Assembly (NCBI GenBank): GCA_028679775.1 | Contig: JAJRAX010000061.1 | Coordinates: forward strand, 1-21,916 | Length of the DNA: 21,916 nucleotides | Source of the DNA: Methanothrix sp. | Lineage (GTDB): Archaea; Halobacteriota; Methanosarcinia; Methanotrichales; Methanotrichaceae | Direction: 5' to 3' | In this document: positions 1-21,799 of the stretch, piece by piece | How positions within the stretch are numbered: position 1 is the stretch's first letter | Layout of the letters: the number at the start of each line of letters is the position of its first letter | The notes under the pieces: generated by a model | Database searches by the model: none | The model's input: the letters and a program-made list of their open reading frames with translations, nothing else | Told to the model about the DNA's origin: nothing | Position numbers and translations under genes: made by a program

Positions 1-115
1 CAGCTTTGGCTGACTACAGCAAGGGAAATAGGCAGGGCCATACCAGTTCCACTGAAGCGAAGCCTTGCGGCAAGTTCAGCCTAGAAATCTTTATCTTGAT
101 TCTAATATCGTGTCC
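1..115. other. Left edge, no supported gene
   Basis: Open frames cross this stretch on both strands, but none has a recognisable motif, and all run straight into the repeat element that begins near 116. It could hold the tail of something interrupted by the window edge. I see nothing I can name. Confidence 0.3.
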
Positions 116-380
116 ATCACCCCAACCGAGCCGCTCCCGCCTTTGCCCGTCATCCCCCTCGGCTCGCTTGTCATCGTCGAGGGCCGCGCTCCTGCGCCGC
201 GGCGCTGCATCTTCTGCACGGCTCGCCCGTAGTGGCAGTAGCATTCTACGACCCGCGGCTGGGGGTGGTCGTGGTGGCAACCCACAGCCCCCCGCCGAGG
301 CCAGGTGGTGGATGTGACGCTGCCTGCGGAGGGAACGGATGGCAGACGGTGATTGCGGCTTGAACCGGGCGGCTCTGGCC
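116..380 (+). repeat. GC-rich dispersed repeat, copy 1
   Basis: First of three same-orientation copies of a GC-rich element. It shares the block tttgcccgtcatccc, the run ggctcgcttgtcatcgt and the core hairpin (257-289) with copy 3, and the same blocks with small changes with copy 2. The match is clear to about 333 and weak beyond, so the 3' third is either diverged or replaced. It lies upstream of the antitoxin/MazF-like pair. Open frames inside it change frame between copies, so it looks non-coding. Its nature (MITE-like element, structured RNA or recombination site) is unknown. Confidence 0.75.
257..289 (+). other. Conserved hairpin in repeat copy 1
   Basis: The arms GGCTGGGGGT and ACCCACAGCC pair over 10 positions with one internal G/A mismatch, around a 13-nt loop. 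Equivalent hairpins occur at 1272-1304 and 2427-2460. The outer five pairs persist in all copies even where single bases differ, by use of G-T wobble. Confidence 0.45.
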
Positions 381-401
381 CGACTGGAGAATATTTATGG
401 A

Positions 402-410
402 TTTATAAAA
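402..410 (+). promoter_or_regulatory. TATA-like box upstream of antitoxin/toxin pair
   Basis: The sequence tttataaaa is a good archaeal TATA-box candidate in the AT-rich stretch after repeat copy 1. Two weaker candidates lie nearer the gene (around 498-506 and 553-562), so the leader length is uncertain. The nearest one would give an almost leaderless message starting at the 586 gene. Confidence 0.35.
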
Positions 411-585
411 CCGCGAGACAAACATGTCAAGCCCTCAAGACAGGACAGACAAATGAATGATAGAGTTCCTCGTGGTCTTGTATCCTACATCATGCAACTA
501 TAAATGCAGCCAATGGCGGTTCACGACTGCCTCATATTGCTGCATGGCAAAGAGATATTTATCATAATCGACAAGAGAGATATGC

Positions 586-774
586 ATGGATATCGAAGCT
601 GAGGTCTTAGAGATGAAACAGATGCTCATGGACATCTCCAGAAGGATTGATAATGTGGTTGATGAGAGAATGACTGAAGCGCTCATGAAATTATCTGAAG
701 AATCACTTATCGAGCTATACAAGGATGAACCGGATCTTTATAATATTTCAGATCTTAAGGTACGGTACAAATGA
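586..774 (+). CDS. Putative antitoxin of MazF/PemK-like toxin
   Basis: A 62-residue, acidic, mostly helical protein. Its stop overlaps the start of the next gene (ATGA at 771-774), so the two are translationally coupled. Size, charge and position directly before a PemK/MazF-type toxin make an antitoxin role likely. The N-terminal two thirds (residues 1-45) look like a continuous helix or coiled coil, rich in Met, Glu and Arg, and I see no ribbon-helix-helix or AbrB signature. The C-terminal tail (around residues 46-62) could be the part that wraps the toxin. A purine-rich gagaga sits just upstream of the start. The antitoxin assignment rests on context; the sequence itself is not one I recognise. 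Confidence 0.7.
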   Translation: MDIEAEVLEMKQMLMDISRRIDNVVDERMTEALMKLSEESLIELYKDEPDLYNISDLKVRYK

Positions 775-1100
775 AGGGGAAGATCGTCCTGATACCGGTA
801 CCCTATACCGATCTGACTGCTGCAAAGCTGCGACCAGCACTTGTGATCTTTGAAGGAAGACAGGATCTGATAGTGGCAGCCATAACAACAACGAAAGCCA
901 ATGCATTTCCCGGATTGGATGTTATTATCGGCATCAAATCTAGAAATTTTTCTAAGACTGGCTTGAAGACCACATCCGTCCTGAAGCTGACCAAAATCTC
1001 AACCATCCGCAAAGACCTTGCAGAAGGTGAGCTAGGCGATATCGAAGGCGATTTGAGAGATGAAGTCAATGGCAATTTGAAGCGAATCTTCGAGATATGA
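771..1100 (+). CDS. MazF/PemK-family toxin (putative mRNA endoribonuclease)
   Basis: A 109-residue protein of normal family length. The N-terminus has the PemK/MazF pattern: a short beta strand (KIVLIPVPYTDL, residues 3-14), then KLRPALVI (residues 19-26), which is the family's K-RPA-V motif. The later stretch with S-VLKLTKISTI and the C-terminal helix containing G-L-GDI also fit the PemK fold. Known members cut mRNA in a sequence-specific way and are held inactive by the upstream partner. It ends only about 24 bp before repeat copy 2. The toxin fold is well supported; activity in this organism is inference. It could equally be a domesticated or weakly active PemK-like protein. Confidence 0.8.
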   Translation: MKGKIVLIPVPYTDLTAAKLRPALVIFEGRQDLIVAAITTTKANAFPGLDVIIGIKSRNFSKTGLKTTSVLKLTKISTIRKDLAEGELGDIEGDLRDEVNGNLKRIFEI

Positions 1101-1123
1101 TAGCTGCTTTCATCGTCTACTCC

Positions 1124-1443
1124 ATCGCCGTCTCCTCGCCGTAGCTCGCTGCCATCATTGCCCGTCATCCCCCCACGACTCGCTCGTGATCGTCGAGGGC
1201 CGTGCGCCCTTAACCGGCGCTGCACCCGGCTAGCATGGCTCGCCCGCAGCGGCCTAGGGCAGCCGACCCCCGGTTGGGGGCAGTCGTTGTGGCAAGCCAC
1301 AGCCGGAAATGGCAGGTGGATGTGAAGATGCCTGCAGAGAGGTAGGGGCCAAATGTCCGGTGGTCACAGCCCGGCAGGCTGGGATCAGTAAGCGCGTGCG
1401 ATCCAACCCATTCAAGCTGGCGAAAGTTAGTTATCTTGGGCAG
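1124..1443 (+). repeat. GC-rich dispersed repeat, copy 2
   Basis: Second copy, about 320 bp. It shares with copy 3 the block gcggcctagggcagccgacc, the hairpin region, and a long 3' part including gtaggggcc, atgtccgg, gatccaa and ttcaagctgg, up to cttgggcagt at the end. Copy 1 shares the 5' two thirds. It fills the whole space between the MazF-like gene and the HEPN gene, so any promoter for the HEPN pair lies inside it or upstream of the toxin pair. Confidence 0.8.
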
Positions 1444-1463
1444 TGGATGCATATCTGAGTTGA

Positions 1464-1880
1464 ATGAATAGGGAGCAATTCCAGGAGCTTGCATTGATCC
1501 GGCTAAAAGAATCGGAGGCCTTGCTTGATGCAGATTGCTGGGATGGAGCGTATTATCTATGTGGATATGCCATTGAATGCGCTCTAAAAGCATGTATATC
1601 AAAAAAGACGAAGGAGCATGATTTTCCACCACCCAGATCTACTATCGAAAAATACTACACACACAATCTGAAGCTTCTAATGGAGTCCGCCGGACTTGAT
1701 GTTCAATTGAAGATTGATATGAAATCTGATCCAGAGCTTGAGGTAAACTGGTATGCTGCAGTTGCCTGGAACGAGTCCAGCCGATACGAAAAACATGGCA
1801 ATAAGCAAGCCCAAGATCTTCATTTGGCAGTAAATGATCCCAATCATGGTGTTCTCAAATGGCTAAAACAGCATTGGTAG
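1464..1880 (+). CDS. HEPN domain protein
   Basis: A 138-residue protein. The N-terminal helix pair (residues 3-45), with a DGAYYLCGYAIECALKA segment at 27-43, is typical of HEPN proteins of the 'GYAxECALKA' type, followed by a second helical half with THNLKLLMESAGL (residues 66-78). HEPN proteins are commonly RNases or toxins paired with a nucleotidyltransferase or another antitoxin. The classical R-x(4-6)-H catalytic motif is not obvious here: the nearest pair is Arg58 and His67, which are too far apart. It may therefore be a non-catalytic HEPN or use another site. The next gene overlaps it by 22 nt. The start lies about 20 bp after repeat copy 2 and has no clear Shine-Dalgarno sequence. Confidence 0.75.
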   Translation: MNREQFQELALIRLKESEALLDADCWDGAYYLCGYAIECALKACISKKTKEHDFPPPRSTIEKYYTHNLKLLMESAGLDVQLKIDMKSDPELEVNWYAAVAWNESSRYEKHGNKQAQDLHLAVNDPNHGVLKWLKQHW

Positions 1881-2233
1881 ACAAGTATCTAAATGACGGC
1901 AGAATGCTGGTATCAGCTCTTGATAGAGATGGCTTTCTAATTGATACGGCCATGTGGTTTTATTCTGATGAGCTGGGTGAGTGGCAGCTCATAGTTGCTA
2001 CGCCTTTGGTGGACCAGTTAGGCCTCAGAGAAACTCTCAGACGGGTTCGGTCAATCATAGGAAATCTGACCTCTATTTCATTGTCATTATCTGATATATC
2101 CCTCTTAAGTCCTAATAATAATCTGATAAATGCCATAAAAACTACTGTGCGCCGATCAAAAGATGTAACTCTCAAAGGTACTGTGACAAATGGCATACTT
2201 GTCAATGATGCCTACATATATTGCGTAGCTTAA
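1859..2233 (+). CDS. Conserved HEPN-linked protein, possible antitoxin
   Basis: A 124-residue protein of unknown function, starting inside the end of the HEPN gene. A GGTG at 1848-1851 is a suitable ribosome binding site for ATG 1859. Visible features are a segment ALDRDGFLIDTAMWFY (residues 20-35), then EWQLIVATPLVDQLG (41-55), a Leu-rich middle, and an end of the type NGILVNDAYIY (112-122). I recall similar proteins next to HEPN genes in bacteria, so it probably belongs to a conserved HEPN-partner family, but I cannot name it. Overlap and pairing suggest an antitoxin or a regulatory subunit. A damaged second copy lies at 2610-2790. Confidence 0.65.
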   Translation: MAKTALVDKYLNDGRMLVSALDRDGFLIDTAMWFYSDELGEWQLIVATPLVDQLGLRETLRRVRSIIGNLTSISLSLSDISLLSPNNNLINAIKTTVRRSKDVTLKGTVTNGILVNDAYIYCVA

Positions 2234-2271
2234 TTAGCGTACAGAATTTGATTTGTGGTTTGTCTGCCTAA

Positions 2272-2603
2272 TCGCCGTCCCCTCTCCGTGGCTCGCTTCC
2301 GCCTTTGCCCGTCATCCCTCGCGGCTCGCTTGTCATCGTGGCGGGCCGGGCGCCGATCTAGCGCTACGGCATGGCCCTGCATCTGCTTCACGGCTCGCCT
2401 GCAGCGGCCTAGGGCAGCCGACCCGTGGCTGGGGGCCGTCGTGGTGGCAAACCCACAGTCGGGAATGGCAGGTGGTGGATGTGACGATGCCTGTGGGGGG
2501 TAGGGGCCCAATGTCCGGCGGTCGCAGCCCTGCAGGTTGAGCTCAGTGAGCGGTTGCGATCCAATCTATTCAAGCTGGTGAAAGTCAGTTGTCTTGGGCA
2601 GTT
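2272..2603 (+). repeat. GC-rich dispersed repeat, copy 3
   Basis: Third copy, about 330 bp. It shares the 5' end (tccgcctttgcccgtcatccc) mainly with copy 1 and the 3' half mainly with copy 2, a mosaic pattern that hints at gene conversion or recombination between copies. The element ends at cttgggcagt, and the remnant of the HEPN-partner gene starts about 7 bp later. Confidence 0.8.
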
Positions 2604-2609
2604 AGACAA

Positions 2610-2790
2610 TCTAATCGATTCGGTCATGTGGTTTTATTCGGATGAGCTGGATGAGTAGCAGCTCATAGTTGCTGCGTCTTTGGTGGATCAGTTAGGCCTC
2701 AGAGAAACCCTTAGACGGGTTCAGTCAATCATAGGGAATCTGACCTCGATTAACGCTCAAAGGCACTGTGGCAAATGGCATACTGGTTAA
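2610..2790 (+). pseudogene. Decayed copy of the HEPN-linked partner gene
   Basis: Aligns to the intact gene at 1936-2077 with a constant offset of 674 and resumes after an 89-nt deletion (intact 2078-2166 are missing between 2751 and 2752). The intact codon TGG at 1982 (Trp42) is TAG at 2656-2658, and the deletion also shifts the frame. The first 25 codons and the whole HEPN gene are absent: the homology begins a few bases after repeat copy 3. It is dead by three independent lesions. It shows that the repeat plus HEPN/partner unit was once duplicated in tandem and then lost. Confidence 0.85.
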
Positions 2791-2816
2791 GATGGGCGAG
2801 TTGAAGATGACAAAAA

Positions 2817-3572
2817 CTATATCACCGCATCCTGTAAGGCGTCATGGCAGCGGCACGACCGCCCATCAGAAATCTTCTGAGAAGCCTGATAGATTATCTC
2901 CCTGACGACATCCTGGCAGCTTTTCATGATATTGGCGATATCCAAGATGGAAAGATCGCCGACTGCGGCCATTCCAGCAGCAGGATTGGTGACGATGCAT
3001 AGCGACGCATAGCACAACGCCGCTTCCCTAGCCAGCGTTACCTCCGGATAGCCGGTCATGCCAATAACATCCCCGAACTGGCGCATCATCCTGATCTGAG
3101 CCGGCGACTCCAGATGCGGGCCCTCTGCGCAGACGTAGACCCCTTCGGCTGCTGGATGGCCGACTGACCGGGCCGCGTCCGACAGGGCAGCTCGCAGCAC
3201 CGGGCAATAGGGCTCGCTCATGTCCACATGGACAGCTCTATCCTCAAAGAATGTATTGGGCCGACATTTGGTGAACTCCACAAAATCAGATGGAAGAAAT
3301 ATGCTGCCAGGAGAGTGCCCTGACATGCTTCCTACGGTGTTTGTGGAGATGACTGCAGTTGCACCCGATCCCTTGGCAGCGGAGACTAATGCCCTGTAGT
3401 TGACTTTATGAGGTGGAAGGTGGCCGTCTCCGTGCCGGGAGATGAAGGCCACTTTGGTCCCTTTCATCCGGCAACGAATTATGGGAACTCTGCCGTAGGG
3501 CGTCTCTATCTCGTCCGCTAATCCCTCCATAACAAAGCCCACACCGCCAATTACAGCCAGATCGGAATTCAT
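2817..3572 (-). CDS. mtnP: MTAP-family phosphorylase, probably methylthioinosine phosphorylase
   Basis: A 251-residue purine nucleoside phosphorylase of the MtnP/MTAP family, which splits 5'-methylthio-nucleosides into base and 5-methylthioribose-1-phosphate. Family motifs are RHGDGH (46-51, phosphate site), NYRA (58-61), MSEPY (118-122), EGPHLES (150-156) and GMTGYPE (171-177). At the base-binding loop human MTAP has Asp220-x-Asp222, which hold the adenine amino group; here the loop reads TNPAAG (195-200), with Asn196 and Ala198. An Asn there is the pattern of 6-oxopurine enzymes such as 5'-methylthioinosine phosphorylase. In methanogens methylthioadenosine is deaminated first, so this fits. 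It lies 39 bp downstream of mtnA, which would use its product. No strong ribosome binding site is visible. Confidence 0.85.
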   Translation of the reverse strand: MNSDLAVIGGVGFVMEGLADEIETPYGRVPIIRCRMKGTKVAFISRHGDGHLPPHKVNYRALVSAAKGSGATAVISTNTVGSMSGHSPGSIFLPSDFVEFTKCRPNTFFEDRAVHVDMSEPYCPVLRAALSDAARSVGHPAAEGVYVCAEGPHLESPAQIRMMRQFGDVIGMTGYPEVTLAREAALCYASLCIVTNPAAGMAAVGDLSILDIANIMKSCQDVVREIIYQASQKISDGRSCRCHDALQDAVI

Positions 3573-3611
3573 GAGACAAGATATGTCGGCTGCTTTAAAG
3601 CATTAATTGCC

Positions 3612-4628
3612 TCAAATCGGCGGCATGAGCGGTGGCCGGAATACCCCCTTCTCAGTGATCAGGCCGCTCACTAGCTCAAGGGGCGTAGCATCAAATGCAG
3701 GGTTGTAGACATCAATGCCCTGAGGGGCCAGCCGCGTTCCGCCCAGGGTGCAGATCTCATCCCTGTCCCGCTCCTCCACGATGATGTCCGATTCCTCGTG
3801 CTGGCGATCAAATGTGGAGAGAGGCGCTGCCACATAAAAGGGAATCTTGTGATACTTGGCCAAAACCGCATGGCTGTAGGTGCCGATCTTGTTGAAGACG
3901 ACATCTCTTGTGATGCGATCTGCTCCAACAATGACCTTGTCTATCATGCCCTTTCTCATCAGGCTGCCGGACATGCTATCGCAGATGAGAGTGACCGGGA
4001 TTTTGTCCGAAGAAAGCTCCCAGGCAGTCAGACGCGAGCCCTGATGCAAAGGCCTGGTCTCGCAGGAATAGACATGGATCTGCTTGCCTGCGGCACATGC
4101 CGAGCGCACCACACCTAAAGCAGTTCCCCAGCCCACACAGGCCAGCCTGCCGGCATTGCAATGAGTGAGGACACAATCGCCGTCGTCGAGGAGCTTGGCC
4201 CCATTCTTTCCGATGAGCTTGTTAATGCGAATGTCCTCTAGAGCTATATCTTCTGCCTCGGCGAGAGCGTGCTGCCGAATCTCCTCGACGGTCTCACCTA
4301 AATAGGCAGCCGAGATCGCCCTGTCCACCCCCCAGGAGAGGTTCACGGCAGTCGGCCGCGAGGCTTTGATCATATCTGCAGCAGTCTCCAGATCAGCCAT
4401 CATCTCCTGAGCGTTCGAGGTCCGCGAGAGATCTGCTGCCAGCGCCACACCATAAGCGCCCGCAGCTCCGAGCGCTGGAGCGCCTCGCACACGCAGGAGC
4501 TTTATGGCATCGATGAGCTGCCGGACATTTTTTATGCGGATGGGCAATAGCTTGCATGGCAGAAGGGTCTGATCGATCAGCCACAGTCCTCCATCCCACC
4601 AGATGGTCAGCGACTCGCACGTGCTCAA
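3612..4628 (-). CDS. mtnA: Methylthioribose-1-phosphate isomerase
   Basis: A 338-residue aldose-ketose isomerase of the MtnA / eIF2B-alpha-like family, converting 5-methylthioribose-1-phosphate to methylthioribulose-1-phosphate. Family motifs are LRVRGAPALG (45-54), the THCNAG motif with catalytic Cys157 (155-160), and VGADRI with catalytic Asp237 (234-239). The related ribose-1,5-bisphosphate isomerase is an alternative, but the CNAG/GADRI spacing and the phosphorylase next door favour MtnA. The start is a TTG at 4628; a GGTGATC (4634-4640) lies 5 nt upstream as ribosome binding site, and no ATG fits the conserved N-terminus. First gene of a two-gene minus-strand operon. Confidence 0.92.
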   Translation of the reverse strand: MSTCESLTIWWDGGLWLIDQTLLPCKLLPIRIKNVRQLIDAIKLLRVRGAPALGAAGAYGVALAADLSRTSNAQEMMADLETAADMIKASRPTAVNLSWGVDRAISAAYLGETVEEIRQHALAEAEDIALEDIRINKLIGKNGAKLLDDGDCVLTHCNAGRLACVGWGTALGVVRSACAAGKQIHVYSCETRPLHQGSRLTAWELSSDKIPVTLICDSMSGSLMRKGMIDKVIVGADRITRDVVFNKIGTYSHAVLAKYHKIPFYVAAPLSTFDRQHEESDIIVEERDRDEICTLGGTRLAPQGIDVYNPAFDATPLELVSGLITEKGVFRPPLMPPI

Positions 4629-4636
4629 GAAAAGAT

Positions 4637-4650
4637 CACCAGATATGGTG
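4637..4650. promoter_or_regulatory. Inverted repeat at mtnA ribosome binding site
   Basis: CACCA-gata-TGGTG is a perfect 5-bp inverted repeat overlapping the Shine-Dalgarno sequence of mtnA. In the message it could form a small hairpin that hides the ribosome binding site; in DNA it could be an operator. Either role is inference. Confidence 0.3.
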
Positions 4651-4660
4651 CTGATGTGCT

Positions 4661-4672
4661 GATAATATCAAT
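4661..4672 (-). promoter_or_regulatory. TATA-like box for mtnA-mtnP
   Basis: On the minus strand the sequence reads ttgatattatc. A start site about 26 nt downstream would fall near 4640, immediately at the ribosome binding site and inverted repeat of mtnA, giving a very short leader. Confidence 0.35.
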
Positions 4673-4717
4673 TTTTGCTTTCAATGAGATTCCGATCGCA
4701 GTTAGACTGAAGAGAGC

Positions 4718-4730
4718 TTTTTATAGTTTG
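4718..4730 (+). promoter_or_regulatory. TATA-like box for the hybrid histidine kinase
   Basis: The sequence ctttttatagttt lies in the 230-bp divergent region between mtnA and the kinase gene. Transcription would start near 4750, leaving a leader of 50-110 nt depending on which start codon is used. Confidence 0.35.
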
Positions 4731-4859
4731 AACCATTTGACTTAATGGCTTTTGCCCTCCGATCGAATTGAGTGATAGCACTTTTTGAGGCAGGGAATCT
4801 CTGTGGATACAGAAATCGAGATCATCGCGAACATTGAAGGAATTTGCAGGCGACAATCG

Positions 4860-7178
4860 ATGCCATCCGGAAAAGACAGATCGAGCCCCTCCAGAGGCCT
4901 CTGCTTAATGCTATGCCTGTTGATCTCGATGACCTTTGTGGCGACAACATTTGCAGCTGAAGGAAGTCAGCCCCAGATCCTGAACACCTCTAGCTCGGTC
5001 AGGGCCTTGAACGGAGACGAGCTGCCTGCCGCCCAAAACATCTCCACAACGCTCAAGTTCGATCAGGAGCAACTGGACAGTTTTGGCATATCTGGGCGAT
5101 CATTGCTTCAGGAAAGCGAGATCATAAACACACCGTCATCTATCTTTGAGGCAAATGATAACTTGATATTAGCATTGGCCACCATGCTGATCTCCATTGT
5201 GCTGGGTCTCGTCATAATCTCAGCTCTGAATATCAGACAGCGATCAAGAACCGAGAGGGATCTGAAAGAGAGCGAGCAGAAGTACCGGGAGCTATCCCTA
5301 CAGCTGCCTCAGACCACATTCGAGCTGGATGCTTATGGCAATCTGATTTTTATCAATCAATTCGGCAGACATTCCCTCGGCTACAACAAGGACGACCTGA
5401 AAGCCGGATTGAACATACTTCAGATCATGGCGGACGAAGATCGAGAGAGGATGAAAGAAGACTTCAACCTGGCTATGCAGGGAACAGCTCAGGCAGAAGA
5501 ATACCGGATAAAGAAAAAGGACGGCAGCACATTTCCAGCCATTGCTTATTCTATACCGATAATCAAAGAGGGCAAGACGATTGGGCTGAGAGGGATCTTT
5601 CTGGACATATCTGAACGAAAACGAACTGAGACGGCCCTGAAGGAATCTGAGAATAAGTTCAGGGTGCTGGCGGAAAAGTCCCTCGTAGGTGTCTACATCG
5701 TCCAGGACTGGAAGTTCAAGTACGTCAACCCCAGGTTTGCGGAGATTTTTGGATACAGTGTAGATGAGATGATCCTCAAGATGGGGCCGATGGATCTGAC
5801 TGACGAAGACGAACTGAAAGGAATCAATGAGGGAATAGGAAACAAGCTAGCCGGCGAGAACGGCTCGTATTATTATGAGGTTCAAGGGACCACCAAGACA
5901 GGAGAGATCGTGGACATCCTGGTCTTTGGATCGATGACAAATTATGAGTCCAGGCCGGCAGTGATGGGAACTATTCTCGATATAACCGAACGAAAGCGCA
6001 TCGATCTCGACCTCTTGAAGGCCAAGGAGGCTGCAGAGGCCGCTGCAAGGGCGAAATCGGATTTTCTGGCGAACATGAGCCATGAGATCAGGACGCCAAT
6101 GAACGCAGTGATAGGAATGACCAGCCTCATTTTGAGAACCGAACTGAGTCCAGAGCAGACGGAGTACATTGTAACCATAAAAAATAGTGGCGAAGCACTG
6201 CTCTCCATCATAAACGATATCCTCGACTTCTCAAGTATTGAGAGAGGAAAGATCGATTTGGAGAACCTTCCGCTCGATTTGAAAAGCTGCATTGAGGAAT
6301 CAATGAATATAGTCTCTGCTCTCGCCAGCAACAAAGGCCTTGAGCTTCGTTATTTCGCGCGGGGATTTATCCCTGATGCGATTTTAGGAGACGAATCAAG
6401 GATACGCCAGATTCTGGTAAATCTGCTCTCCAATGCGGTGAAGTTCACAGAAAAAGGAGAGATCGAGGTTTGGTGCCAGGCAGACGGAATTGATCCTGAT
6501 AGAAACAGATACCTAATTCACATATTCGTCAGAGATACTGGGATTGGCATACCTCAGGAGACCCAAAAGAAGCTCTTCCAGCCATTCTCGCAGGCCGATG
6601 CATCCACCTCCAGAAAATATGGCGGAAATGGTCTCGGGCTTGCCATCAGCAAGAGGCTTGTAGAGCTGATGGGTGGCAGAATATGGGTAGAGAGCATCGC
6701 TAACATGGGCAGCACATTTCATTTTACATTTCCTGCTGAAGTGTCCGCTCTGCCTGCCAAAAAAGCATCGCTCACACCCACAGAATTAGACCATCCAAGG
6801 CCAAACCGGGAACGATCCATTCTCCTGGCAGAGGATAACATGGTTAACCAGAGGATGGCCATTCTCATGCTCAAGAAGCTGGGGTACAATGCAGATACGG
6901 TGACCAACGGGCAGGAGGTTCTTTATGCATTGGAGCGGAAAACCTATGACCTGATATTGATGGATGTGCAGATGCCTGAGATGGACGGCCTGGAGGCCAC
7001 CCGAGAGATACGCCGACGATGGCCGTCCAATGGTCTGAAAATTGTGGCTTTAACTGCTCATGCCATTGCTGGCGACAGAGAACGATGTCTTGACGCTGGG
7101 ATGGACGACTATCTGTGCAAGCCGATCAATATCGAGGATCTCAAGGCAGCCCTGGAACGAGCATTCATCAATTTATGA
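4860..7178 (+). CDS. Membrane hybrid histidine kinase, PAS-PAS-HisKA-HATPase-REC
   Basis: With ATG 4860 the protein has 772 residues. A Lys/Arg-rich start and hydrophobic stretch (around 13-33) form a signal peptide or first TM; a roughly 70-residue outside segment and a second TM (about 102-124) follow. Two PAS domains (about 142-258 and 266-380) each end in a DI(S/T)ER-type PAC motif. HisKA has SHEIRTPMN with the phospho-acceptor His408. HATPase_c has the N-box NLLSNAVKF (from 521), DTGIGIP (559) and GGNGLGLAI (588). A C-terminal receiver has phospho-acceptor Asp702 in [13 protein letters not shown] and the conserved Thr/Lys later. An in-frame TTG at 4785 and GTG at 4803 (preceded by aggga) would add 25 or 19 residues, but ATG 4860 gives the cleanest signal peptide. 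No separate response regulator lies next to it; the ligand is unknown. Confidence 0.93.
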
Positions 7179-15485: not shown

Positions 15486-15563
15486 GGGACAGTGGGGTAG
15501 CCTGGTCTATCCTCGAGGGTTTGGGACTCTTGGACCGCGGTTCGAATCCGCGCTGTCCCACCA
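15486..15563 (+). tRNA. tRNA-Pro(UGG), CCA encoded
   Basis: Folds as a cloverleaf. The acceptor GGGACAG pairs with CTGTCCC over 7 bp. The D arm has GGGT/ATCC. The anticodon stem GAGGG/CTCTT encloses the 7-base loop TTTGGGA, giving anticodon TGG for proline codons CCN. The T arm CGCGG-TTCGAAT-CCGCG is perfect. Discriminator A (15560) is followed by an encoded CCA (15561-15563). No intron is seen. Confidence 0.95.
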
Positions 15564-16580: not shown

Positions 16581-16633
16581 CTATCTCGTCTCCTGAAGTG
16601 TTTGGACATCTGTCAGGGTCGTTTATCACTTTT

Positions 16634-16645
16634 CCTTTAGAAAGG
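16634..16645. promoter_or_regulatory. Inverted repeat in the ATP citrate lyase promoter
   Basis: CCTTT-ag-AAAGG is a perfect 5-bp inverted repeat next to a TATA-like tttgtaaata (16647-16656), 46 bp before ATG 16691. Its place suggests a regulator site or a BRE-overlapping element; both are inference. Confidence 0.35.
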
Positions 16646-16690
16646 TTTGTAAATAAGAAACTCATTAAGGCGGCGAAGGTGGTTTTGGAC

Positions 16691-17959
16691 ATGGCACAGA
16701 GAGGCATTAGGGAGTACGATGCGAAGCGTTTGTTGGCCAGAATCCTCCCCGAGTACCTCAATGAATTCTCCTACAAAGGCGAAGTCGCACTTGTGGGACC
16801 TGAGACGGATCTGGAGGTGCTGGCATCAACTCACCCCTGGCTGAAGACCGCCAGGCTTGTTGTCAAGCCGGATCAGCTCTTTGGAAAGAGAGGCAAGCAC
16901 GGGCTGGTTCTTCTGGACGCAGACTGGGACCGGACGAAGAAATACCTTAAGGAAAACATGGGCGCAGAGGTAGCTGTGGGAAGCATTACCGGCAAGCTAT
17001 CTCATTTCTTGATCGAGCCCTTCATACCCCACGACGAAGAGTTTTATGTGGCCATCAGCACAGACCGCGATGGCGACAACATATTCTTCTCGATGCAAGG
17101 CGGCGTCTATGTAGAAGAGAACTGGGATAAGGTAGTCCGAATTCATGTGAACGTGCTCGACGGGATAGACAACCTGGATATCAAATCCGAGCTGCCAGAG
17201 AGCCTAAAAGATAAACGCATCGCTATCGAAAGGTTCATCCGAGCTCTATGGCGGTTTTATGCCGAGACAGGCTTTGCCTATCTGGAGATCAATCCCTTTA
17301 CCTTCAGAAACGGCTCCATTGTGCCCCTGGACATGGTAGCCAAGCTCGATGATGCCGAGGAGTACTGGCAGAGGAAACGCTGGGCAGGCCTCGCCTTCCC
17401 CGAGCCCTTCGGCAGGAGCCTCTCTAAGGAGGAGCTGTTCATCAAGGAACTTGACTCCAAGACGGGTGCCTCTTTGAAGCTGACCATCCTGAACCCAATG
17501 GGAAGGGTTTGGACCATGGTTGCCGGAGGCGGTGCTAGCGTGATATATGCAGACACCATCTGCGATCTGGGGTTCGCGAAGGAGATGGCCAACTACGGAG
17601 AGTACAGTGGCGATCCCAACACCGAGGAGACCTACTACTATACCATGACCATTTTAGACCTGATGACCCGCCACAAAGACTCTCGCGGGAAGGTCTTGCT
17701 CATAGGAGGAGCCATCGCCAACTTCACCGACGTGGCTAAAACCTTCAAGGGAGTGGTCACTGCCCTGGAGGAGTACCAGCAGAGGCTTCAGGAGGCAGGC
17801 GTCAGAATATATGTGAGGAGAGGCGGCCCCAATTACGAGCAGGGCCTGAAGCTCATGAGGAATCTAGGCAAGAAGCTTGGCGTGCCCATTGAGGTTTACG
17901 GGCCTGATACGCATATGACACGAATTGTTCCCCTAGCCCTGGAGGGTGCACAACTATGA
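16691..17959 (+). CDS. aclB: ATP citrate lyase, N-terminal (small) subunit
   Basis: A 422-residue subunit matching the N-terminal half of human ACLY and plant ACLA (about 423 aa). It opens MAQRGIREYDAKRLL, like plant MARKKIREYDSKRLL, so ATG 16691, with AGGTGG (16677-16682) 8 nt upstream, is the start. The ATP-grasp/succinyl-CoA-synthetase beta-like part holds KPDQLFGKRGKHG (59-71); further on are FLIEPF-P--EEFYV, WTMVAGGGASVIYAD (GGGAS at 279-283, citrate site), NYGEYSG and RRGGPN. With the next gene it forms the enzyme ATP + citrate + CoA to acetyl-CoA + oxaloacetate + ADP + Pi in the cytoplasm. In bacterial naming the small subunit is aclB; in plants the same half is ACLA. The frame stays open 93 bp upstream, but that part is not conserved. 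Confidence 0.93.
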   Translation: MAQRGIREYDAKRLLARILPEYLNEFSYKGEVALVGPETDLEVLASTHPWLKTARLVVKPDQLFGKRGKHGLVLLDADWDRTKKYLKENMGAEVAVGSITGKLSHFLIEPFIPHDEEFYVAISTDRDGDNIFFSMQGGVYVEENWDKVVRIHVNVLDGIDNLDIKSELPESLKDKRIAIERFIRALWRFYAETGFAYLEINPFTFRNGSIVPLDMVAKLDDAEEYWQRKRWAGLAFPEPFGRSLSKEELFIKELDSKTGASLKLTILNPMGRVWTMVAGGGASVIYADTICDLGFAKEMANYGEYSGDPNTEETYYYTMTILDLMTRHKDSRGKVLLIGGAIANFTDVAKTFKGVVTALEEYQQRLQEAGVRIYVRRGGPNYEQGLKLMRNLGKKLGVPIEVYGPDTHMTRIVPLALEGAQL

Positions 17960-19839
17960 GCAAGACCATGAGCAAGACCGCGAGAAAGGATTACGTCCTC
18001 TTTGATATGGACACAAAGGCCTTCGTTTACGGCTATCAGACCAATGCCATTCAGCGCATGCTGGACTTCGACTACATCTGCAACCGTCCCGAACCCAGCA
18101 TCTCCGCCATTATCAATCCCAATCGGGCAGGGATTCACAAGGTTTTCTGGGGAAAGAAGGAGATCATCCTGCCGATGTACAAGACCATCTCAATGGCGGC
18201 CAAAGCTTACCCAGAGGCCGATGTGATGGTCAACTTTGCTTCTCACCGATCCGCCTTCGAGACCACCATGGAGGCATTGGAAGTGAAGAGCATTCGTATT
18301 GTGGCGGTCATCGCCGAGGGCGTGCCTGAGAGGCAGTCGCGCATAATGAGCGCCACGGCGAAAAAGATGGGAAAGATTGTCCTCGGACCGGCTACAGTTG
18401 GAGGCATGACTGCGGGGGCCTTTCGCATAGGAAACACTGCCGGGACCATCGAGAACATCATAGCTTCAAAGCTCTACCGGCCTGGTTCAGTCGGATTTGT
18501 CTCCAAATCTGGAGGCATGCTCAATGAGGCCTTCAACATCATCTCTCGAAATTCTGATGGCATTTTCGAGGGAGTGGCCATTGGCGGCGATCGTTATCCC
18601 GGATCGACAATGCTCGACCACATCCTGCGCTATGAGGCCAATCCTGCAATCAAGATGATTGCATGCTTGGGCGAGCTTGGTGGCGAGGACGAGTATCGGA
18701 TCATCAGGGCTCTTTTAGAGAAGAAGGTCACAAAGCCTTTGGTGGCCTGGGTGACGGGCACATGCTCGCCGGTTCTTCCCGCGAGCGTTCAGTTCGGACA
18801 CGCTGGCGCTAAAGCCGACACCGAGAAGGAGACGGCTCAGGCCAAGAACGATGCATTCCGCGAGGCTGGAGCATTTGTGCCTACCTCGTTTGACGGCTAT
18901 GGCGATACCGTTCGCCAGGTCTACGAGATGCTGGTGTCCAAAGGCAGCATCGTTCCATTTGAGGAGCCTGACGTGCCCAAGATCCCGGCGGACTTCAGCA
19001 AAGCGCTGGCCTCAGGTGACATCCGAAAGCCGACCACATTTATCTGCACCATATCTGATGACAGCGGCGACGAGGTTCTGTACGCTGGAAAGAGGCTGTC
19101 GTCGGTTCTTGAAGAGAAGATGGGCATCGGCGGGGTCATCGGACTGCTATGGTTCAAGAAGCATCTGCCCGGCTATGCCGCTCAGTTCATTGAGCTTGTC
19201 TTGCAGATCGTGGCCGACCACGGGCCGGCTGTATCCGCAGCCCACAACTCAATAGTCGCTTCGTGCGCCGGAAAGGATCTCATCTCATCGCTATGCAGTG
19301 GTCTCTTGACAATCGGGCCGCGTTTCGGCGGAGCCATAGACGATGCCGCTCGCGAGTTCAAGAGAGCCAAAGAGACCGACATGACCCCAGAACAGTTTGT
19401 AAACGACATGAAGAAGAGGGGCGTCAACATCCCGGGAATCGGCCACAAGATCAAGAGCACCAAGAACCCGGACAAACGCGTGCAGTTGCTCATAGCCTAT
19501 GCTCGTGCGAATTTTCCGAGAACCGATCTGCTCAATTATGCTTTGCAGGTTGAGGAGCTGACCACGGCTAAGAAAGGCAACCTCATACTGAATGTTGACG
19601 GATGCATCGGAATTCTCTTCATTGACCTGATGAGCTCATGCGGGGCTTTTAGCAAGGAGGAGATCAATGAAGTGGTGAAGCTTGGCTACCTCAATGGTCT
19701 CTTTGCTCTGGGAAGGTCCATCGGCTTGATAGGCCATATCCTGGATCAGAAGAGGTTGGGATCGAGGCTCTACAGGCATCCGACAGATGACATTGCTTAC
19801 ATGATGCCTTCAGCAGAGGATATAGAGTGCAAGCGTTGA
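17956..19839 (+). CDS. aclA: ATP citrate lyase, C-terminal (large) subunit
   Basis: A 627-residue subunit matching the C-terminal half of human ACLY and plant ACLB. The first part (to about 340) is succinyl-CoA-synthetase alpha-like: FVSKSGGMLNE (CoA/phosphate region) and QFGHAGAKA with the phosphohistidine His282 (human His760). The C-terminal citrate-synthase-like domain (about 370-627) has IGPRFGGAIDDA, GIGHKIKS with His497 (human His900) and NVDGCIG with Asp548 (human Asp1026), all catalytic residues present. The start overlaps the small-subunit stop by ATGA. The ten residues before YVLFDMD contain a repeated MSKT, so an internal ATG is possible. From memory, the M. soehngenii enzyme has a crystal structure, so this system is known. 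Flow could be toward acetyl-CoA or, less likely, toward citrate. Confidence 0.93.
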   Translation: MSKTMSKTARKDYVLFDMDTKAFVYGYQTNAIQRMLDFDYICNRPEPSISAIINPNRAGIHKVFWGKKEIILPMYKTISMAAKAYPEADVMVNFASHRSAFETTMEALEVKSIRIVAVIAEGVPERQSRIMSATAKKMGKIVLGPATVGGMTAGAFRIGNTAGTIENIIASKLYRPGSVGFVSKSGGMLNEAFNIISRNSDGIFEGVAIGGDRYPGSTMLDHILRYEANPAIKMIACLGELGGEDEYRIIRALLEKKVTKPLVAWVTGTCSPVLPASVQFGHAGAKADTEKETAQAKNDAFREAGAFVPTSFDGYGDTVRQVYEMLVSKGSIVPFEEPDVPKIPADFSKALASGDIRKPTTFICTISDDSGDEVLYAGKRLSSVLEEKMGIGGVIGLLWFKKHLPGYAAQFIELVLQIVADHGPAVSAAHNSIVASCAGKDLISSLCSGLLTIGPRFGGAIDDAAREFKRAKETDMTPEQFVNDMKKRGVNIPGIGHKIKSTKNPDKRVQLLIAYARANFPRTDLLNYALQVEELTTAKKGNLILNVDGCIGILFIDLMSSCGAFSKEEINEVVKLGYLNGLFALGRSIGLIGHILDQKRLGSRLYRHPTDDIAYMMPSAEDIECKR

Positions 19840-19883: not shown

Positions 19884-21134
19884 ATGGCGATTGGGACGAT
19901 AAGCCAAAAAATTTTTTCGCGGGCCTCCGGTTCCGCCAGGATGGTGGAGCCGGGGGAAATTGTTGAGGCAGGCGTGGATTACGCCATGTCTCATGACGGC
20001 ACATCCGTTTTGGCCATCCGGGCTTTCAAAGAGATGGGATGTGATCGGGTATGGAATTCTGAAAGGATTGTAATACCCTTTGATCATATTGTTCCAGCCA
20101 ACAACGAGACTGCTGCAGAGCTGCAGAGGGATGTGAGGGCCTGGGTAAAAGAGCAGAAGATCATCAATTTCTTTGACTGCGGCCAGGGCGTCTGCCACGA
20201 GGTCTTTCCTGAGAAAGGGTTTGCTCTGCCTGGACTGCTGCTCGTGGGGGCTGACTCTCATTCCTGCACCTACGGAGCCCTTGGGGCCTTCGGCACCGGA
20301 GTAGGTGCTACGGACATGGCCGAGATCTACTCGCGGGGGAGATTATGGTTCAAGGTTCCGGAGACTATAGCCATTCGATTGACCGGCTCCCTCAAGCCCA
20401 ATGTCTCTGCCAAGGATATCGCCCTCATGGTGATAGGAAAGCTCGGAGCTGATGGGGCGACATACAAGACGGTGGAGTACATCGGCCCTGCCACAGAGGC
20501 CCTGGCCATCTCAGGGCGGATGACGCTGTGTAACTTGGGTGTTGAGATGGGGGCAAAAGCCGCCATAGTTCCGCCGGACAGGAAGACGGACCTTTGGCTT
20601 TCTGGGAGAACGCGGCAGGCTTACCATCCGGTGCATTCCGATCCAGGTTCTTATGATTATGAGCACGAGTACGACATCAGGGATCTGGAGCCGCAGGTGG
20701 CTGTTCCCTTCCGGGTGGATAACGTCCGGCCCGTTTCCGAGTTAGCGGGTCTGCCTGTTGACCAGGTATTCATAGGCACATGCACCAACGGGCGGCTGGA
20801 GGATCTGGAGGTGGCGGCGCGGATCTTGAGGGGCAAGCAGGTTCGTGTCAGGACTCTGGTCATACCTGCCTCGCGAGAGGTCATGATGCAGGCGCTGCAA
20901 CTGCATGTCATCCAGACCCTGGTTGGATCGGGGGTCATGATCGGCACGCCCGGATGCGGGCCATGTCTGGGAGCGCACATGGGAGTCCTCGCAGAGGGCG
21001 AGGTCTGCGTCTCTACGTCCAACAGGAATTTCCCAGGAAGGATGGGAAAAGGTGGGCTCGTTTACCTGGCGAGCCCTGCCACTGCCGCGGCCTCGGCCTT
21101 GAATGGATGCCTGACTGTGCCGGGGATCAAATGA
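19884..21134 (+). CDS. leuC: 3-isopropylmalate dehydratase/homoaconitase-family large subunit
   Basis: A 416-residue aconitase-superfamily large subunit of the archaeal short type. Motifs are [19 protein letters not shown] (121-139), [13 protein letters not shown] (296-308) with Cys300, and [12 protein letters not shown] (354-365) with Cys358 and Cys361; these three cysteines bind the 4Fe-4S cluster. [11 protein letters not shown] (378-388) is also present. Such subunits need a small LeuD-like partner, which is not in this window. Archaea have two or more of these proteins, for leucine synthesis (LeuC) and for 2-oxosuberate synthesis (coenzyme B, AksD/HacA), and some act as aconitase. Placement 44 bp after ATP citrate lyase makes a citrate-linked role possible. 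ATG 19884 follows gaggcgggcg. Confidence 0.85.
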
Positions 21135-21799
21135 GATTTGATTTGCATGTGCATTCCAATTGCTCAGACGGCCGTGACGAAGTCAGGACCATTCTGAGGG
21201 CCGCTTTCCGGCGTGGCCTGGGCGGATTGTCCATTACCGATCACGACACTCTGCAGGGCTCTTTGAAGGCCCGAAAAATCATCCGAGAGGAAAAGCTGGA
21301 CTTGATTCTCATCCCCGGAGCAGAGGTCACAACATCTGAAGGGCACCTGCTCTGTTTAGGAATAGAGGAGCTGCCGCCCCGTGGGAAGAGCCCTGAGGAG
21401 ACCGCAGACATGGCACGTGGGCAGGGGGGCATAGCAATTGTTCCTCATCCCTATCATCCATTCCGGCACGCAATCGGGCGGGTACCGGACTGTGATGCAG
21501 TGGAGGTCTACAACTCCAAGCACCTCTTCGGCATAGCCAACGCCAGGGCCAGGAGGGAGGCAAAGAAGCGCCATCTGCCAATGGTAGCCGGGTCCGACTC
21601 TCACTTTGCGGCGACGGTCGGGCTCGGAGTCACAGAGATCCCGGCCTCGTACGCAGAGGAAGCTGTGGAGGCCATCCGGGCAGGCAGGACACTGGTTATA
21701 GGAAGGCGCACACCGCCGCGGTTTTTCATCGGGAACACTTTTCAGTCGATTTACCTGATAGTGAGGAACGGAGGACGGAAAAGGCAAAGGAAACCATAG
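21131..21799 (+). CDS. PHP-domain metal-dependent phosphoesterase
   Basis: A 222-residue protein of the PHP family (polymerase and histidinol phosphatase domain), with most metal ligands in place: [11 protein letters not shown] (His6, His8), ITDHDT (Asp37, His38, Asp39), GAEVTT (Glu65), VPHPYHP (His106, His109) and GSDSHF (Asp156, His158). Members of this short type include nucleotide/oligonucleotide phosphoesterases (for example RNase AM/YciV) and histidinol phosphatases; the substrate here is unknown. ATG 21131 overlaps the LeuC-like stop by ATGA, so the gene is coupled to it. The frame is open far upstream (to 20780), but that part is a shadow of the aconitase gene. Confidence 0.88.

Follow-up and report, generated by a model that had tools for sequence, protein, structure and literature searches.

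The stretch of DNA considered here, which we call the window, is 21,916 nucleotides long and constitutes the entire contig C284 (JAJRAX010000061.1) of a draft genome of Methanothrix sp. (2.34 Mb, 83% complete). Three GC-rich elements lie on the same strand at its left end and alternate with small gene pairs. Almost certainly, judging from their sequence, these elements are pseudogenes of csx3 (crn3), that is, decayed copies of a gene for a ring nuclease acting on cyclic tetra-adenylate (cA4). Along the plus strand the order is a HicB-like remnant, csx3, MazEF, csx3, a HEPN pair, csx3 and a remnant of the HEPN partner. cA4 is the second messenger of type III CRISPR (clustered regularly interspaced short palindromic repeats) systems, and csx3 normally turns off this alarm signal. 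Csx3/Crn3 has been described to cleave cA4 (PMC7371418).

A sequence-only reading of the window had concluded that no named family matches the repeated element. That conclusion is wrong, because a protein gene, now decayed, makes up the core of the element. A search of plasmids with copy 3 matched a gene annotated as crn3/Csx3, and a csx3 nucleotide profile matches the window at 111-328, 1110-1337 and 2261-2494 (E = 1e-50, 3e-43 and 2e-50). In the whole assembly PF09620 matches only these three elements, copies 1 and 3 (26.1 and 21.8 bits) above the cut-off of 21 and copy 2 (16.5 bits) below it. The peptides LPPLPVIP.GSLVIVEGRAP and ALHLLHGSP..AVAFYDPRLG are recognisable in the window copies in different frames, and in copy 3 the Trp codon of PIWRYG is replaced by TAG; we regard the copies as pseudogenes for these reasons. 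None retains an intact open reading frame (ORF), there being three frameshifting indels in copy 1, five in copy 2 and, besides the TAG, four in copy 3, so that they are non-working members of the family. The residues H57, H60, D69, R71 and H80 of the Archaeoglobus fulgidus protein (AfCsx3) are scattered over the broken frames. That there are three same-strand copies with common blocks was seen correctly from the letters alone, as the profile matches and a tail shared by copies 2 and 3 confirm. The common blocks are 66-90% identical to their reference copy. When copy 3 is used as a query against its own assembly, it finds copy 2 (E = 7e-72), copy 1 (E = 3e-34) and no fourth copy.

All features described in this paragraph are on the plus strand. 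Ahead of copy 1 there is the 3' remnant of a HicB-like antitoxin gene (1-60), cut by the contig end and absent from the earlier description. Its protein match is weak (20 residues, 70%, E = 2e-4); over 109 nt the DNA flanking copy 1 shows 83% identity with the HicB-like/csx3 junction in another Methanothrix contig, G020:C35. Copy 1 itself (111-333) lacks its 5' end. The element had been drawn as 116-380, of which the 3' part is a promoter-side segment rather than csx3. The segment GGCCCGAC...TTTATAAAA (377-411), with a TATA-like box at 402-410, may act as a promoter for the following mazE; similar segments occur elsewhere, 3' of csx3 in four other copies and ahead of other genes. The mazE-like gene (586-774) encodes a presumed antitoxin of 62 aa, which has no family match above any cut-off, is conserved in arrays of five relatives and shares an ATGA overlap with mazF (771-1100), a gene of 109 codons for a PemK/MazF-type toxin (PF02452, 42.1 bits, cut-off 23.1). 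A PemK/MazF toxin, here predicted from sequence, with an overlapping small upstream gene is what is expected of a type II toxin-antitoxin (TA) module. Copy 2 (1097-1342) begins within mazF: the stop TGA at 1098-1100 overlaps the start ATG at 1097-1099. Because of this overlap the spacing of 24-39 bp previously given between cassettes and repeats does not hold at this junction. The tail that follows (1341-1444) leads to a HEPN-domain gene (1464-1880; 138 aa, presumed toxin), which scores 21.3 bits with PF05168, just below the cut-off of 22, and matches PADLOC PDC-M28A with E = 4e-7. The overlapping partner ORF (1859-2233; 124 aa) belongs to no family of Pfam, NCBIfam or PADLOC. Apart from the remnant in the window, its sole relative in 26 genomes (77% identity) follows a csx3 remnant in G010:C13. 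With its PADLOC candidate and its familyless partner, 1464-2233 is possibly an uncharacterised HEPN-type TA pair. Copy 3 (2248-2494), broken by frameshifts and the amber codon, precedes a duplicate of the tail (2499-2602; 86% identity) and a partner-ORF remnant (2604-2790), which is a copy of 1936-2077 and 2166-2205 (90% and 88% DNA identity; protein match with one TAG). Units 2 and 3 are thus a tandem duplication, and the second of them has lost its HEPN gene. The description of a two-gene cassette or its remnant after each copy is borne out: mazE/mazF at 586-1100, HEPN and partner at 1464-2233, and the partner piece at ~2604-2790.

Could the element be something other than a gene? It is GC-rich, repeated and intergenic, and the sequence-only reading considered a structured RNA belonging to each cassette, with a known insertion sequence (IS) or a miniature inverted-repeat transposable element (MITE) as a further identity. 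We consider a structured RNA or a MITE/IS fragment extremely improbable. The sequence is that of csx3. At gathering thresholds Rfam gave no match to the window, and relaxed thresholds gave two weak, chance-level matches, both outside the elements. Folding compared with shuffles gave no excess in 36 csx3 copies (for the 27 broken ones the mean z is -0.04 in sense and 0.32 in antisense). On identity, Rfam scans and folding, a structured RNA finds no support. Terminal inverted repeats are likewise absent, positions 1-5000 holding just two inverted pairs, neither at element ends, and a search with Tandem Repeats Finder reported no tandem repeats. As had been stated, a Pfam scan of 14 window ORFs, which left aside those at 19884-21134 and 20780-21799, revealed neither a transposase nor an integrase.

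The arrangement is not peculiar to this window. Together with it we screened 36 regions of relatives, which were picked because csx3 matched there. The csx3 profile threshold is passed by 34 of the 37 regions (L123, L161 and L162 are without csx3), giving 58 mapped copies in 20 of 26 genomes. A TA homologue lies within 400 nt of 39 of the 58 copies (on both sides of 11), and all 76 copy-TA pairs, which involve 51 distinct TA matches, are on one strand. The TA types are MazEF, HicBA, MntA/HepT, HEPN pairs and DUF4258-YgiT. Of 3653 random segments lying over 2.5 kb away from csx3, 64 have a TA gene nearby, a contrast that is partly circular since the TA reference set was drawn from these arrays; the strand result is unaffected by this. 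Six arrays, each on a single strand, may serve as examples of the alternation: csx3-MazEF-csx3-HicBA-csx3-MNT/HEPN-csx3 (G008:C269), csx3-MntA/HepT-csx3-MazEF-csx3 (G025:C103), Card1-csx3(intact)-YgiT-csx3-HicA-like/HicB-like (G010:C31), csx3(intact)-YgiT-csx3-HicB-like-csx3 (G013:C9), csx3-HicA/B-like-csx3-HicBA-csx3-csx3 (G020:C35) and csx3-YgiT-csx3-HicBA-HicB-like (G001). A TATA-like segment lies 3' of csx3 and ahead of several of the next cassettes.

The association can also be viewed from the side of the TA genes. There were 41 mazF matches, 30 of them with testable loci, two of which are the same place. All six mazF genes nearest that of the window (72-100% identity) adjoin csx3, one of them as a weak vestige (profile E = 0.19, yet 91% over 121 nt to the end of another remnant), while at the other mazF loci csx3 is found beside one of 23, a broken mazF in G004:C24. 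Similarly, seven of the eight nearest DUF4258 genes (65-100%) lie within csx3 arrays. We found no clean empty site that could be compared with a filled one. L078 was dropped as an empty counterpart of the filled L066, since a HicB-like fragment remains after csx3 in L078.

What does csx3 do where it is intact? Eight of the 26 genomes have intact copies, nine in all, with 91-98 codons. The eight copies that were aligned as proteins invariably keep H57, H60, D69, R71 and H80 of AfCsx3 (H49, H52, D63, R65 and H74 in alignment A2), residues that are named in PMC7371418. The relatives carry the intact gene in type III-B operons, of which Card1 is an effector; in L066 the order of genes is Cmr5, Cmr6, Card1, Csx3, HicB-like, a csx3 fragment, a CARF-like (CARF/SAVED) protein and a Cas4-Cas1 fusion. 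Full-length Card1 is present in seven genomes, all of which have an intact csx3, compared with one of the 19 other genomes (G013; Fisher 1e-5). Between csx3 and the preceding gene there is an overlap or a short gap; that gene is mazF in the window and in G025:C103, and Card1 in several operons. Other effector genes can also stand ahead of csx3: an S_4TM protein gene after a RAMP protein gene in G021:C80 (L064 1214-3536), and a gene for a CARF (NE0113-type) protein in G007:C84 (L086 7785-9122). A search for Cmr5 and Card1 found neither in the window's genome, which is 83% complete (Cas10 was not searched for), nor in G001, which consists of two contigs and is 99% complete. Both genomes have broken csx3 copies only, and these lie between TA genes.

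Several observations on csx3 and CRISPR may be added here. In several genomes a single CRISPR-type repeat is found a short way downstream of a csx3 remnant or of its mazEF cassette (L081 341, L089 4632, L069 9120, L079 5586), and a short CRISPR array directly precedes a csx3 remnant in G010:C13 (L124 133-382). The single repeats may be relics of CRISPR loci or ectopic repeats of the CreTA kind. Outside Methanotrichaceae we viewed 23 bacterial loci. Each has one csx3, none matches the TA set (distant TA genes could escape it), and 16 have Cmr, Card1 or Cas4-Cas1 matches. The Csx3 proteins of planctomycetes and other bacteria (L171, L176, L178 and others) are ~63-75% identical to Methanothrix Csx3 and are often encoded in Cmr/Card1 operons, which suggests that the type III-B operon has been exchanged between archaea and bacteria. 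In an 18-kb Pyramidobacter plasmid record (L032 2440-2724) csx3 is accompanied by LexA-like, helix-turn-helix and DUF2800 genes, and the 5.1 kb viewed contain no cas gene; perhaps this is a ring nuclease that a mobile element uses against CRISPR. Relatives of intact Csx3 (51-78% identity) are also encoded by four viral contigs. In a survey of type III loci, 10 of the 242 with a ring nuclease had more than one (PMC12409355), and repeated csx3 is unusual by that measure.

Intact and broken copies differ in how they change. For 51 csx3 copies with a span of at least 90 we counted the mismatches to whichever other intact copy was closest. At codon positions 1/2/3 the rates are.063/.047/.336 for the nine intact copies and.131/.118/.287 for the 42 others. 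Frameshifting indels are present in 36 of those 42, the remaining six being classed as broken since they are short, cut by a contig end or startless, and in none of the nine. Intact copies are under purifying selection. In six islands the corresponding rates are.098/.054/.291 for mazE and.129/.071/.297 for mazF. Since mazE and mazF are constrained and most csx3 copies are frameshifted, the TA genes have been kept and the adjoining csx3 copies have not.

The copies also bear signs of exchange. Csx3 identity is.789 within arrays (12 pairs) and.730 between genomes (537 pairs), counting pairs with at least 120 common columns, a difference reached by one of 2000 label shuffles; within arrays the spread is wide (.668-.888). 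The clearest case is copy 980 of G010:C31. Over its first 65 columns it is identical at 48/51 and 47/51 positions to broken YgiT-linked copies of two other genomes and at 33/50 to its intact neighbour, whereas the remainder is identical to that neighbour at 186/201. On this alignment the copy is a recombinant with a crossover inside csx3. Among the 34 of 58 copies that could be aligned for the purpose (span at least 180 positions, score above 100), broken ones have replaced blocks of ~5-20 nt that recur at four positions; the same blocks are found in different species, in varying combinations. One such scar, in the 5' third of csx3, lies beside YgiT, MazEF and HEPN cassettes in four genomes. 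Copy 3 of the window agrees with copy 2 in the 5' block and in the fourth scar, and in columns 60-115 it is nearer to copy 1 (46/51) than to copy 2 (40/51). The suggestion that copy 3 is a mosaic of copies 1 and 2 thus gains some support from scars and identity patterns, and the evidence for it is modest. Homology from unit to unit starts near the start codon of csx3 and fades past its stop. One site may be in different states in different species: the G025:C103 array and a csx3 fragment in G011:C26 have the same gene beside them, nearly equal end points and 91% identity downstream over 260 nt. In three genomes one gene lies beside csx3 remnants.

The sequence-only reading had thought of a recombinogenic boundary element that gathers small defence-type gene pairs. 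Alternation in relatives, the single strand, the shared scars and the recombinant copy fit this idea, and with moderate confidence we believe that homologous recombination within csx3 led TA cassettes to accumulate beside this gene in the CRISPR operon, that the extra copies decayed and that the TA genes outlast the loss of CRISPR. The order of events that we infer, with homologous recombination as the probable driver and addiction as the probable cause of persistence, would be as follows. TA cassettes settle beside csx3 in a type III-B operon. Csx3 homology would then drive repeated recombination, be it integration of circles, unequal crossover or conversion, and every event would leave one more csx3 copy; n cassettes are for that reason often found between n+1 copies. 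Since one csx3 suffices for signalling, the extra copies would decay, and one would be kept functional as long as the CRISPR system works. If the operon is then lost, as it apparently was in the genome of the window, addictive TA genes would hold the island together, with csx3 copies as fossil spacers. We also venture, more tentatively, a general form of the scheme: csx3, living or dead, could be the recombination spacer of an integrase-free platform in which TA cassettes, several with their own promoter, are gained, lost and shuffled inside csx3. The platform might have moved from the type III-B effector slot to other sites, and CRISPR would gain addiction modules that outlive it.

A number of points weigh against this scheme. 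We saw neither a circle nor a donor nor any exchange in progress. Many of the csx3 copies agree at just ~70-80%, a divergence at which homologous recombination would work poorly today, so the process may be an old one. Instead of having been exchanged, the block scars could have arisen by recurrent or templated mutation. In G010 the 3' part is local in both copies, which conversion or two crossovers would explain better than a single Campbell event. In G013 csx3 is intact and there is neither Card1 nor Cmr5. Within 400 nt, 19 of the 58 copies lack a TA gene of the reference set, the comparison with random segments has the circularity mentioned, and copy numbers depart from the n+1 rule in L065, L076 and L077. 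Close relatives of the TA genes also live without csx3: a DUF4258-YgiT pair (78%) on contig C402 of the window's own genome has no detectable csx3 nearby, a HicB gene in G004:C78 (86%) has none in the surrounding 8 kb, and four of 116 HicB matches fall in mapped arrays.

Other explanations share part of this evidence. The arrays might be passive relics, decayed type III loci in which TA genes settled as they do in defence islands, with a few old tandem duplications of csx3, vertical inheritance and no continuing exchange between csx3 copies. Sites found in different states across species, as in G025:C103 and G011:C26 or at the gene lying beside remnants in three genomes, would be expected of such relics, as would the CRISPR repeats close to some remnants and the tandem duplication of units 2 and 3 in the window. 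It is more difficult to reconcile with identical complex scars beside different TA families, with blocks that reassort and with the recombinant copy 980, and it leaves the uniform orientation of TA genes on the csx3 strand unexplained. For these reasons we think it unlikely, though it deserves to be taken seriously. Alternatively, csx3 could once have been the working third gene of a TA operon (promoter, antitoxin, toxin, csx3) that was duplicated in tandem and in which csx3 later became dispensable. The overlap of csx3 with the mazF stop in the window and in G025:C103 suggests this, and so does the promoter-like segment after csx3 ahead of several next cassettes. However, csx3 overlaps or abuts Card1 in the same manner in type III operons, an intact csx3 goes together with Card1 rather than with TA genes, nearly every TA-flanked csx3 is broken, in contrast to the preserved mazE and mazF, and matches to the TA set are absent from the 23 bacterial csx3 loci. 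We consider an origin as a three-gene unit improbable.

A further possibility is an unrecognised site-specific system, integron-like, Xer-like or a transposon, that would move units of csx3, promoter and TA genes by a site at the csx3 edges. Such a site would account for the limits of unit homology and for the strict single orientation. Yet the G010 crossover lies inside csx3, the folding excess expected of attC-like sites is absent from the 36 copies, and the 14 window ORFs scanned, to which the search for recombinases was confined, include none. We regard such a system as highly improbable.

How does the arrangement compare with what is known? The sequence family is that of Csx3/Crn3 (PF09620, TIGR02579; A. 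fulgidus AF_1864; PDB 3WZG/3WZH/3WZI, 6VJG and 6YUD), and intact relatives keep the AfCsx3 residues and sit in Cmr/Card1 operons. In the other groups seen there is a single csx3 per locus, whereas the window copies are broken, multiple and split by TA cassettes. Integrons and clusters of attC sites lacking integron-integrases (CALINs) resemble the arrays in having small same-strand cassettes, TA genes included, with a repeated element between them. CALINs lack the integron integrase by definition. The repeat in our arrays, ~250 nt long, is what remains of a protein gene and shows no folding excess, and no integrase is found among the 14 ORFs scanned. The pdif/dif modules of Acinetobacter also carry TA and other genes between repeated sites, but those are short Xer sites and the repeat here is csx3 (Xer sites were not searched for). 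Defence islands are reportedly rich in TA modules and, as here, have TA genes next to CRISPR genes; what differs is the regular alternation with a single decayed gene, all on one strand. CreTA links addiction modules to CRISPR, and CRISPR-like repeats outside arrays occur near some csx3 copies; as described in PMC9458426 its toxin is an RNA repressed by means of ectopic repeats, while the arrays have protein TA families between csx3 copies. In the window itself, no CRISPR repeat of the relatives' type was found with up to six mismatches to a 26-nt pattern.

The family is therefore a known one, and the arrangement, broken ring-nuclease genes spacing TA arrays, was not found described in the literature searched. 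By title, literature on Csx3, TA and type III CRISPR (closed-access papers being outside the scope) gave no earlier description of csx3-TA arrays, and none was found on Csx3 with Methanothrix. The word toxin is absent from the main text of the type III surveys PMC12409355 and PMC11229360. If our reading is correct, the islands would be cassette arrays that need no integrase for their assembly, occupy the accessory slot of a type III CRISPR operon and have an ordinary gene for their repeat. They would offer a route for TA modules into CRISPR loci and a record of CRISPR loss in which addictive genes remain, and broken csx3 could serve as a marker for finding further islands.

The rest of the window includes two adjacent genes for ATP-citrate lyase subunits (16598-19839), the one with citrate-binding/ATP-grasp and the next with CoA-ligase/citrate-synthase domains, which is noteworthy in a methanogen. 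The other neighbours are ordinary: phosphorylase-superfamily and IF-2B/MtnA-like genes adjacent on the minus strand (2817-4628), a PAS-rich hybrid histidine kinase (4785-7178) and tRNA-Pro(TGG) (15486-15563).

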